Positions 1 through 38,451 of a stretch of 64,000 bases of DNA are shown piece by piece. The position numbers and the translations under genes are program-made. Origin of the DNA: Leifsonia aquatica (GTDB taxonomy: Bacteria > Actinomycetota > Actinomycetes > Actinomycetales > Microbacteriaceae); NCBI RefSeq assembly GCF_014190775.1, contig NZ_JACHVP010000002.1, positions 310,001-374,000 on the forward strand. Direction: 5' to 3'. How positions within the stretch are numbered: the first letter of the stretch is position 1; every line of letters starts with the position of its first letter. The notes under the pieces are model-generated. The model did no database searches, had not been told where the DNA came from, and saw nothing but the letters and a program-made list of their open reading frames with translations.

Positions 1-1362
1 AAGGGCCCGCTCGAGGTCTCGGAGGCCGTGCGGATCACCGAGGGCATCCTGACCGCCCTCGAGTACTCGCACCGCGCGGGCGTGGTGCACCGCGACATCA
101 AGCCGGGCAACGTGATGATCACCAAGACCGGCCAGGTCAAGGTGATGGACTTCGGCATCGCCCGTGCGATCAGCGACTCCTCGGCGACCGTCGCGCAGAC
201 CACCGCCGTGCTCGGCACGGCCAGCTACTTCTCGCCGGAGCAGGCGAAGGGCGAGTCGGTCGACGCGCGCACAGACCTGTACTCGACCGGTGTCGTGCTC
301 TTCGAGATGCTCGCCGGCCGGCCGCCGTTCCGCGGGGACACCCCCGTCGCAGTCGCCTATCAGCACGTGAGCGAGGCGGCCGTCGCGCCGAGCACGCTCA
401 ACCCCAAGGTCTCGCCGGCGATGGATGTCGTCGTCGCCCGCGCACTGACCAAGGACCGTTTCGAGCGCTACCAGACCGTCGCCGAGTTCCGCGCCGACCT
501 CGAAGAGGCCGCCGCTGGACGCGTCCCGGTCCACAAGGAGAGCGACGAGCTCTCCGAGACGCTGTTCGGCGCCCCGCCGAGCTCGGTCTCCGGCCCGGAG
601 GCGGCGTTCCGGCAGCTCGCCGAGGACCAGACGATGACGCGCACGCAGCGCCGTCCCCCGGTCATCTGGATCTGGGCCGGCATCGCCGTCATGGCGGTGG
701 TGATCGTCGCCGTCCTCGCCTGGGTGCTGCGGCTCGCCCCCACGACAACCATGCCCGAGACGTCGCGCACCGTGCCCACCATGGCCGGCCAGACGGTCGA
801 CGAGGCGACGGCGACGCTCGAGAAGATGAAGCTCAAGTGGACGCAGACCACCGAGACGAGCGCGACCTACCCCGAGGGGCAGATCATCCGCAGCGACCCC
901 GGTGCCGGCATCGTCGTCGCGACAGGTGACACGATCAACCTCTACGTGTCGACCGGCAAGAAGACCGTCGCCGTCCCGGACGTGCACAACATGAATCTGG
1001 ACGCGGCCAAGGCGGCGATCACGGCCGCCGGCCTCACCGTCGGCCCGGTCACGACCGAGAACTCCTCCTCTGTCGCCGCCAACATCGTGATCTCGACCGA
1101 TCCCGATGCGACCGGCAAGGCGCACGAGGGAGATCCGATCTCGCTCACCGTGTCAAGCGGCAAGGTCACCCTCGCCGATCTGACGGGGCAGACGATCCAG
1201 GCGGCCACCGGCATCCTGTCGCAGCAGGGTCTCACCGCCAACCCGAAGCCCGATCCTTCCTGCCCGCAGGACAGCGGAGCCCCCCTGGTGCACACGCAGT
1301 CCGTGGCGCCCGGCGACGTGCCGCAGGGATCGACGGTCGACCTGACCTACTGCTCGGGCTGA
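1..1362 (+). CDS. pknB: Ser/Thr protein kinase with PASTA repeats, 5' truncated by window edge
   Basis: The reading frame is open from the first base, so the N-lobe of the kinase lies outside the window. Seen: HRDIKPGN catalytic loop (about residue 30), DFG (about 51), an SPEQ activation-segment end, and a kinase C-lobe to about residue 160. A juxtamembrane stretch and one membrane segment (about nt 660-735) follow, then about three extracellular PASTA repeats to the C-terminus. This is the PknB architecture: a membrane kinase that senses peptidoglycan or lipid II through PASTA and controls growth and division. The location beside a PabA/TrpG-type gene and the sortase/crgA genes near oriC fits actinobacterial pknB. 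A paralogue such as PknA/PknL is less likely because of the PASTA repeats. Confidence 0.93.
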   Translation, partial: KGPLEVSEAVRITEGILTALEYSHRAGVVHRDIKPGNVMITKTGQVKVMDFGIARAISDSSATVAQTTAVLGTASYFSPEQAKGESVDARTDLYSTGVVLFEMLAGRPPFRGDTPVAVAYQHVSEAAVAPSTLNPKVSPAMDVVVARALTKDRFERYQTVAEFRADLEEAAAGRVPVHKESDELSETLFGAPPSSVSGPEAAFRQLAEDQTMTRTQRRPPVIWIWAGIAVMAVVIVAVLAWVLRLAPTTTMPETSRTVPTMAGQTVDEATATLEKMKLKWTQTTETSATYPEGQIIRSDPGAGIVVATGDTINLYVSTGKKTVAVPDVHNMNLDAAKAAITAAGLTVGPVTTENSSSVAANIVISTDPDATGKAHEGDPISLTVSSGKVTLADLTGQTIQAATGILSQQGLTANPKPDPSCPQDSGAPLVHTQSVAPGDVPQGSTVDLTYCSG

Positions 1363-3369: not shown

Positions 3370-3512
3370 GTTTCCACAGTTGTCCACAGGTGCTTATCCA
3401 CACTGAGGAAAACTCCCCGAGGGCGGTTCTCCCCAGTGTTAATAAGCCTGTGGAGAGTTACACGCGTGTAATTATCCCCACTGTTAACAACCCTGTGGAT
3501 AACTTATCCACG
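3370..3512. promoter_or_regulatory. Cluster of DnaA boxes outside oriC
   Basis: A dense set of matches to the DnaA-box consensus TTATCCACA within 143 bp. Two are perfect: TTATCCACA at 3394-3402 and its complement TGTGGATAA at 3494-3502. Close variants are TTGTCCACA (3380-3388), TTTCCACA (3371-3378), TTATCCCCA (3472-3480), TTATCCACG (3504-3512) and TGTGGAGAG (3449-3457). The stretch is also AT-richer than its surroundings. It lies about 14 kb from the dnaN-dnaA origin candidate, between the crgA terminator and the 3' end of the rhomboid gene, so it is not an obvious promoter for either. It may titrate DnaA or act as an accessory origin element; this is inference. Confidence 0.7.
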
Positions 3513-19218: not shown

Positions 19219-19673
19219 CGTTCCCCGTCTTCGTTCTTCGTGTGGATGCCGTCGCCCGACGGAGACGAGTCGTCCCCCGGAGGGCTCGAGTCAGGCTGCA
19301 GCAGATGTGCCGTCGGTGGGTATTCACAGAGTTATCCACTGATGTGTCTGCAATACCGTAGTGATCTCCGGCCTTTTGTGAGCCAGGCTGGGGATAACTT
19401 TGGTCCTCACGGTAACTTGTCCACAGGTTGTGGATCAAATTCGACTCCTGGAATACGTCGCCGAAACACGGCGCGTCGCCGCGACGGATCCTGCAAATCC
19501 CGTGCATAATCAGTGGATTTGACTCGATCGGTTTGACCTCGGTCCTTTATAGGCCGTAGTTTTAATCAGTTGACTTCAGCCGTTCAGGCTGCCCTGAAAC
19601 TTTTCTGGCCTCCCCGTGCTGGCGATATCCATCAGCACCGGCCTGCGAAGACACCACCACGGAGATAGAGATT
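19219..19673. promoter_or_regulatory. dnaA-rpmH divergent promoter region with DnaA boxes
   Basis: A 455-bp gap with no gene. DnaA-box matches: TTATCCACT (19332-19340), TTGTCCACA (19417-19425) and TGTGGATCA (19429-19437), closer to dnaA than to rpmH. A plausible rpmH promoter is TTGACC (19533-19538) - 18 nt - TAGTTT (19557-19562), giving a leader of about 105 nt. The boxes could be part of a bipartite origin together with the dnaN-dnaA gap, or an autoregulatory site of dnaA. Confidence 0.65.
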
Positions 19674-37937: not shown

Positions 37938-37953
37938 GCGACGAAGAGAGTCA

Positions 37954-37985
37954 GTGTAGCGGTGGGCGCATGCCCGCCGCTACAC
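37954..37985 (+). terminator. Terminator after rplI
   Basis: A 14-bp stem GTGTAGCGGTGGGC (37954-37967) with GCCCGCCGCTACAC (37972-37985, one G-U), GCAT loop, 16 nt past the rplI stop. A T-rich stretch follows only after 15 nt. Confidence 0.65.
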
Positions 37986-38011
37986 CTCGTTAACGGACTT
38001 TTCCCCCGATC

Positions 38012-38227
38012 TTGTACACAGGTCGACACGCCCGGATAACGCGTTTCACCACAGTCCCCGAAGTACTTTCTACACACAACCTGGGGATAGAAAAAGGCCA
38101 GGTCAAAGCCGCTTTAGTGACAGAAATATCTTCCCTGTCCACAGACTTCCCCACATGTTCTGCACAAGCACGGCGGCGTTTCGCGCAGATTCTCCACACA
38201 GTTATCCACAGGCCGAGTTGTGGACCC
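38012..38227. promoter_or_regulatory. DnaA-box cluster upstream of dnaB
   Basis: In the 514-bp gap before dnaB, within about 215 bp: TTATCCACA (38202-38210, perfect), TTCTCCACA (38190-38198), CTGTCCACA (38135-38143), TTCCCCACA (38147-38155), TTGTACACA (38012-38020), TTCTACACA (38068-38076), TTCTGCACA (38158-38166) and TGTGGACCC (38219-38227). The 38228-38440 remainder shows neither a believable gene nor a clear motif. Position suggests DnaA control of dnaB transcription or a DnaA reservoir. Confidence 0.65.
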
Positions 38228-38451
38228 CCTGCCGGGTTCGTAGGGTGAAGCGACGCCGATGGATCGCCCGCCGGATGGACCGGTTCTGTCGGTGGTCGGA
38301 GAGACCATCGGAGGCGACGGCGCGCGGTTCCCGAGCCGCCCGCGTCGGTCGTCGAACCGGCGGCGCGCCTGCGGGCATCCCGACGCCCCACGGCGAAGCT
38401 GAGACCGTGACCACGCCCGCGTGGCTGCTGCGGTCAGAGTGAGGAGAGAAC

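Follow-up and report, generated by a model that had tools for sequence, protein, structure and literature searches.

DnaA-box clusters that tune the initiation of replication exist, and older work on such clusters is available for Streptomyces. Control of the helicase gene dnaB by DnaA is of an already known kind; for mycobacteria, binding of DnaA in front of this gene has been shown (PMC7738170). Five main DnaA sites were described in vitro for Mycobacterium tuberculosis, and the homologous five were found by ChIP-seq in M. smegmatis; in both species, by these respective methods, DnaA binds upstream of dnaB, and a mycobacterial DnaA mutant with weaker binding at this place under-expresses dnaB (PMC7738170). 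Another of the five sites is adjacent to crgA (Rv0011c; PMC3989709). The authors saw nothing that obviously corresponds to it in other bacterial species, and it has been linked to isoniazid resistance in M. tuberculosis (PMC7738170).

The dnaB site considered here belongs to another family, the Microbacteriaceae, and is described by sequence alone, with its phasing, its promoter geometry and two extra motifs. A further comparison reaches into a different phylum, that of Caulobacter crescentus. The dnaB gene of this organism is in the DnaA regulon (Hottes et al. 2005, cited in PMC8203912), and the likeness lies in predicted DnaA boxes upstream of the gene, accompanied there by DnaA-dependent transcription (PMC8203912). 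Autoregulation of dnaA is similar in that DnaA boxes precede a replication gene, and the locus studied here has such boxes in the rpmH-dnaA gap as well. The datA and DARS elements (named in PMC4585315) share with it several DnaA boxes outside oriC; the dnaB array differs from them in following the dnaB promoter and not a chromosomal place. Our literature search, with most subscription papers outside its reach, found no report that the dnaB or crgA clusters are conserved across the class. What is added here to the known dnaB control is a promoter-locked architecture in the family, conservation in the class, the motifs E1 and E2, and a four-site match with mycobacteria.

DnaA-box array in the rplI-dnaB gap

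The window, the whole 64-kb stretch of Leifsonia aquatica DNA analysed here, contains the dnaN, dnaA, ssb, rpsR, rplI and dnaB genes, and crgA as assigned by Pfam match. The dnaB gene lies 19 kb from dnaA. A gap of 514 bp separates the end of rplI (37937) from the GTG start codon of dnaB (38452). Counting 9-mers with at most two mismatches to TTATCCACA, we found nine DnaA-box-like sequences in this gap, all inside 38012-38210 (Table 1). One is perfect, one has a single mismatch and seven have two, in line with the one perfect and about seven near-matching boxes that had been claimed. Dinucleotide shuffles of the gap contain 0.57 boxes on average and none of 2000 reached nine, so the cluster proposed directly upstream of dnaB lies beyond chance.

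Eight of the nine boxes are oriented toward dnaB. These eight fit a period of 11.2 bp (R 0.956), a value equalled in 0.1% of 5000 random placements. Since two-mismatch boxes are by themselves weak evidence, the support for these seven comes from their conservation and phasing.

Other features of the gap were also considered. The strong hairpin downstream of rplI may mark where the ribosomal-protein transcription unit ends; a terminator scan found no T-rich intrinsic terminator in the gap, including at this hairpin. An Rfam search of the gap gave no match up to an E-value of 1. The minimum GC content, calculated in 100-bp windows from base composition only as a look at a possible unwinding element, is 48%.

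Table 1. Predicted features of the dnaB upstream region (window coordinates)
Feature	Position	Strand	Basis or comment
Strong hairpin 3' of rplI	37954..37985	+	fold of 37938-38012: -34.6 kcal/mol, z -4.2
DnaA-box-like TTGTACACA, 2 mismatches	38012..38020	+	9-mer scan, relatives
DnaA-box-like TTCACCACA, 2 mismatches	38045..38053	+	9-mer scan
DnaA-box-like TTCTACACA, 2 mismatches	38068..38076	+	9-mer scan; kept in near relatives
DnaA-box-like CTATCCCCA, 2 mismatches	38082..38090	-	9-mer scan
E2, conserved non-DnaA motif CAGGTCA (CWGGTCA)	38099..38105	+	36 bp before box 38135
DnaA box CTGTCCACA, 2 mismatches to TTATCCACA	38135..38143	+	9-mer scan, relatives
DnaA-box-like TTCCCCACA, 2 mismatches	38147..38155	+	9-mer scan, relatives
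DnaA-box-like TTCTGCACA, 2 mismatches	38158..38166	+	9-mer scan, relatives
E1, conserved non-DnaA motif CGGCGTTTCGCGCA	38174..38187	+	relatives; single genome copy, searched as CGGCGTTTCNCNCA
DnaA box TTCTCCACA, 1 mismatch	38190..38198	+	9-mer scan, relatives
Perfect DnaA box TTATCCACA, promoter-proximal	38202..38210	+	9-mer scan, geometry
Putative -35 element TTGTGG	38218..38223	+	conserved TTG; 16 bp after start of last box
Putative -10 element TAGGGT (TAnnnT)	38241..38246	+	conservation; 17-bp spacer
dnaB, replicative DNA helicase, 458 aa	38452..39828	+	TIGR00665, E 5.9e-160

Conservation of the array

Conservation was measured as the number of TTNTCCACA matches with at most one mismatch in the 500 bp upstream of dnaB. 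The family set comprised 73 loci from 150 family genomes (matches in 149) and one from a further family genome, the window's own locus being included; 45 loci were fetched from 143 genomes belonging to other families in the class. About half of the loci are the closest matches, and the rest were hand-picked for spread or for the dnaB-dnaA distance. As the loci are related, the counts are not independent events. Preservation of the boxes before dnaB in relatives had been set beforehand as the test on which the original prediction could fail, and the boxes are kept: at least three occur in 73 of the 74 family loci and in 35 of the 45 loci from other families (one of them with only 192 bp of upstream sequence), and in 3 of 26 loci from other classes of the phylum (one without upstream sequence). 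At least one exact box is present in 66/74, 34/45 and 7/26 loci, respectively.

Subsets of these loci were compared with shuffled sequences. Three or more boxes were found in 30/30 family loci (shuffles 0.5%), 16/20 distant class loci (0.7%) and 3/25 loci from other classes (0.3%). None of the control stretches reached this number, neither downstream of dnaB (0/29 in the family set, 0/27 in the class) nor upstream of rplI (0/30). The family locus without the array (L130, from a 0.9-Mb genome) has no box before dnaB. Fewer than three boxes were counted in 10 of the 45 other-family loci, among them three of the four with rplI beside dnaB. Of 25 other-family loci, 21 have no detected rplI and four have it; the cluster is present in 18 of the former and in one of the latter. 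Its preservation where rplI was not detected indicates independence of that neighbour.

Large dnaB-dnaA separation occurs in several genera of the family (loci L120-L129, L020, L025, L026). We hand-picked, non-exhaustively, 13 family genomes in which dnaB and dnaA are 77-565 kb apart or on separate contigs. The distances are 565 kb (G148), 452 kb (G001), about 310 kb on the assumption of a circular contig (G149), 156 kb (G133), 112 kb (G070), 90 kb (G050), 80 kb (G120) and 77 kb (G062). In the remaining five genomes (G002, G033, G085, G086, G108) the two genes are on different contigs, with dnaB at least 90 kb from the ends of its contig. The box cluster is kept in all 13 genomes. They average 6.77 boxes, while the average is 6.40 for the 30 nearest family loci, a set that shares three members with the 13. 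The promoter geometry described below is kept in ten of the 13 and missing from three. In 11 of them rplI is still beside dnaB, so the block seems to have moved there as a unit. Because the cluster is kept both in these genomes and in loci without rplI, the array goes with dnaB and not with the place or with rplI, although this is not universal. A conserved place near oriC, as expected of a datA-like element, is thus not a property of the cluster, since it is kept when dnaB is far from dnaA.

Promoter-like elements and box geometry

Alignment of ten near relatives revealed near-constant spacing between the boxes and a conserved promoter-like pair downstream of the array. A sigma-70 consensus scan of the gap did not find a promoter, and TTGTGG and TAGGGT are weak hexamers, so the promoter is proposed solely from conservation. 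In the window, the last box ends 7 bp before the putative -35 element, and its centre is, as computed from the sequence, about 47 bp before a presumed transcription start near 38253. All boxes found are upstream of the putative core promoter, which stays free.

Measured from the last plus-strand box, 52 of 73 family loci have TTG at offset 16 (mean 1.35 over all offsets), and 57 of 73 have TAnnnT at offset 39 or 40 (mean 0.95). The joint geometry, a box 16-17 bp before TTGnnn-16..18-TAnnnT, is present in 56 of 74 loci, compared with 0.36% in shuffles that leave the boxes in place; 18 loci lack it in this strict form. In alignment of these 56 loci, selected by promoter geometry, the box-core positions reach 2 bits. 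The distance from the start of the geometry-matching box to the dnaB start codon ranges from 62 to 266 bp, and this variation indicates that the boxes keep their place relative to the promoter-like pair rather than to the reading frame. Within the family, therefore, the boxes hold a conserved place relative to a promoter-like pair, the latter being a promoter by prediction.

Among the 45 loci from the other families of the class, only one shows a TTG/TAnnnT pair at the 16-17 bp spacing. The commonest position of TTG there is 28 bp after the last plus-strand box (12/44). In six aligned loci of one such family (f21), an inverted perfect box lies closer to the promoter, between the last plus-strand box and TTG.

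The boxes of the dnaB arrays are mostly co-oriented: 396 point toward dnaB and 57 away in the family, 133 and 35 in other families of the class. This distinguishes them from the boxes of the rpmH-dnaA gap, which are mixed in direction (82 to 80), as are those of oriC (61 to 68), and also from the boxes on the 3' side of crgA.

Conserved motifs E1 and E2

Two further conserved motifs that differ from the DnaA box are present in the array. E1 is roughly as well conserved as the boxes, with 11 of its 14 positions carrying 1.35-1.87 bits in the 56 geometry-selected family loci. The full motif CGGCGTTTCGCGCA was found with up to three mismatches in 54 of 70 family loci. As a class-wide motif E1 was rejected: it matched only 11 of 49 class loci, a set that included the family loci L091-L094, and nine of these 11 matched only with three mismatches. 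A short form, GTTTCGCG with at most one mismatch, located 9-14 bp before a box, is present in 38 of 74 family loci and in 6 of 44 loci from other families, all six in a single genus (g107) of family f21. By eye, E1 agrees with the DnaA box at five of nine positions, and we considered that it may be a degenerate DnaA box.

The composite pattern of E1 and two boxes has at least 119 matches in the species collection. Among the 119 matches listed, 112 lie 61-285 bp before a same-strand dnaB gene, three immediately precede the first segment of a split dnaB, and four are at the end of a locus where dnaB is not covered. Split dnaB matches were seen in many class genomes; in L266, L273 and L296 the gene is interrupted by an intein-like insertion. 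One contig labelled Microthrixaceae (L284) has a typical Microbacteriaceae dnaB control region, and this metagenome bin may therefore be contaminated.

E2, with the consensus CWGGTCA, is found in 35 of 74 family loci (10.5% in shuffles) and in 26 of 44 other-family loci (7.2% in shuffles), compared with 3/33 and 5/24 in the control stretches downstream of dnaB. Of the loci that have it, 21 of the 35 in the family and 13 of the 26 in other families show it 35-37 bp ahead of a box. When both strands were searched, the short E1 was found in 57 of 74 regions before dnaB versus 9, 9 and 8 of 30 at oriC, the rpmH-dnaA gap and the crgA 3' side; the corresponding numbers for E2 are 35/74 versus 8, 6 and 7 of 30. 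E1 and E2 probably contribute to the shape of the DnaA complex or serve as sites for an additional factor. Because the listed targets of MtrA in M. tuberculosis include dnaB (PMC11215152), MtrA was considered as a candidate E2-binding factor; the MtrA motif in that source shows no obvious match to E2.

Other DnaA-box clusters in the window and the genome

The window was scanned for stretches with at least three TTNTCCACA near-boxes (at most one mismatch) per 500 bp. Four reach the threshold: the 3' side of crgA (about 3.4 kb), the dnaA-dnaN oriC region (about 17.6 kb), the rpmH-dnaA gap (about 19.4 kb; boxes at 19332-19437) and the dnaB gap. The original prediction of several separate clusters over 35 kb thus holds. 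Thirty-nine exact copies of TTNTCCACA are present in the 4.41-Mb genome, and they form groups, with two or more copies inside 300 bp, at four sites, of which three lie in the window. The fourth group (L227 1750-1820; G000:C2:169749-169819) consists of three TTCTCCACA and one TGATCCACA and is located between a radC-like ORF on the minus strand and an acetyl-CoA acetyltransferase-like ORF on the plus strand, both named by eye from their translations. In twenty 20-kb stretches from relatives, which start about 1 kb upstream of dnaA and extend past dnaN, at least three boxes occur in 49 of the 780 500-bp tiles; 44 of these are near dnaA or crgA and five are elsewhere.

The cluster at 3370-3512 of the window lies between the convergent crgA and rhomboid genes and corresponds in position to the Rv0010c-Rv0011c DnaA site of M. 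tuberculosis. In a class set made of the best-scoring 30 of 141 matching genomes (three from the window's family, with the window included), at least three boxes are present on the 3' side of crgA in 18 loci, against none of 30 on the 5' side. The rhomboid gene is convergent on the 3' side in all 21 of the 30 class loci where it was found. Within the family, the cluster is present in 12 of the 13 loci with crgA in the stretch, the other 7 of the 20 stretches having no detected crgA. Eleven of the 13 have the rhomboid gene in the convergent arrangement; two have it 5' of crgA, with the cluster still on the 3' side. Given the convergent arrangement, this cluster is hardly a promoter of either neighbour. 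Overall, four of the five mycobacterial DnaA sites (oriC, rpmH-dnaA, crgA-adjacent and dnaB) have positional counterparts in the window, by comparison with the sites as given in PMC7738170.

Discussion

We consider it very likely that DnaA controls transcription of dnaB, with either sign, from the predicted promoter region in the gap. This reading follows from the geometry of the boxes to the promoter-like pair in the family, from conservation in the class and from co-movement of the array with dnaB. In the proposed mechanism, the array would act as a head-to-tail, helically phased row with one strong box at the promoter and weaker boxes upstream. A DnaA oligomer would nucleate on the strong box at 38202 and extend upstream across the weak sites; its last subunit would come to lie immediately before the -35 element, and the dnaB promoter would be of the sigma-A type. 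Bound DnaA would then control dnaB transcription, most likely by activation, and the supply of helicase could follow the amount or the ATP-state of the initiator. Activation is somewhat more probable than not; it is favoured by the mycobacterial DnaA mutant with less binding and less dnaB expression, a single mutant of another family (PMC7738170). The opposite sign, with the oligomer hindering RNA polymerase as in dnaA autorepression, seems unlikely. A distance of only 7 bp could allow an extended oligomer to occlude the -35 element, and dnaA is autoregulated by DnaA in several bacteria (PMC8203912); against this, every box found is upstream of the putative core promoter, and the same mycobacterial mutant shows less, not more, dnaB expression (PMC7738170).

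The original prediction had offered two readings, transcriptional control of dnaB by DnaA or a DnaA sink near the origin, and it is the former that geometry, conservation and co-movement bear out. As a sink or activity-resetting site similar to datA, DARS or DnaA-box clusters, the array would titrate or recycle DnaA after oriC is copied, with dnaB a mere neighbour. The location 19 kb from dnaA, where the array and the crgA-3' cluster flank oriC as a pair, and the small number of exact-box groups in the genome agree with such a role. It is nevertheless quite improbable, because the array is phased to the promoter-like pair, its boxes run mostly in one direction unlike those of oriC and crgA-3', and the cluster is found with dnaB at remote places or on other contigs in 13 of 13 genomes. 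A place-bound sink near oriC was accordingly dropped as the main reason for conservation; some DnaA titration may occur as a side effect of the array. The dense boxes together with the local GC minimum could also be expected of an auxiliary replication origin or unwinding region before dnaB, which we regard as scarcely credible for an array that accompanies dnaB and keeps register with a promoter-like pair. A chance or compositional effect of an AT-richer intergenic region, with which the mismatches in seven of nine boxes would be compatible, is refuted by the class-wide conservation; given also the shuffling results and the invariant box cores of the geometry-selected loci, its probability is negligible.

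We tentatively suggest, as a possibility with somewhat less than an even chance, that the dnaB control region is an old element of the class, in which a phased DnaA platform is combined with E1 and E2 for a second partner, and that it belongs to an ancestral DnaA network with oriC, rpmH-dnaA and crgA-3'. If the composite-element reading is true, transcription of the helicase gene would read the initiator together with a second signal. E1 and E2 are usable as bait for a regulator. If the ancestral network is true, initiation, the initiator, the helicase and a site at a division gene would be joined in a scheme common to mycobacteria and Microbacteriaceae. The results also suggest that the crgA-adjacent site has counterparts in non-mycobacterial relatives, where it is open to study. 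A DnaA site known in mycobacteria from ChIP and affinity sequencing is thereby widened to a class-wide pattern, with boxes locked to the predicted helicase promoter in one family.
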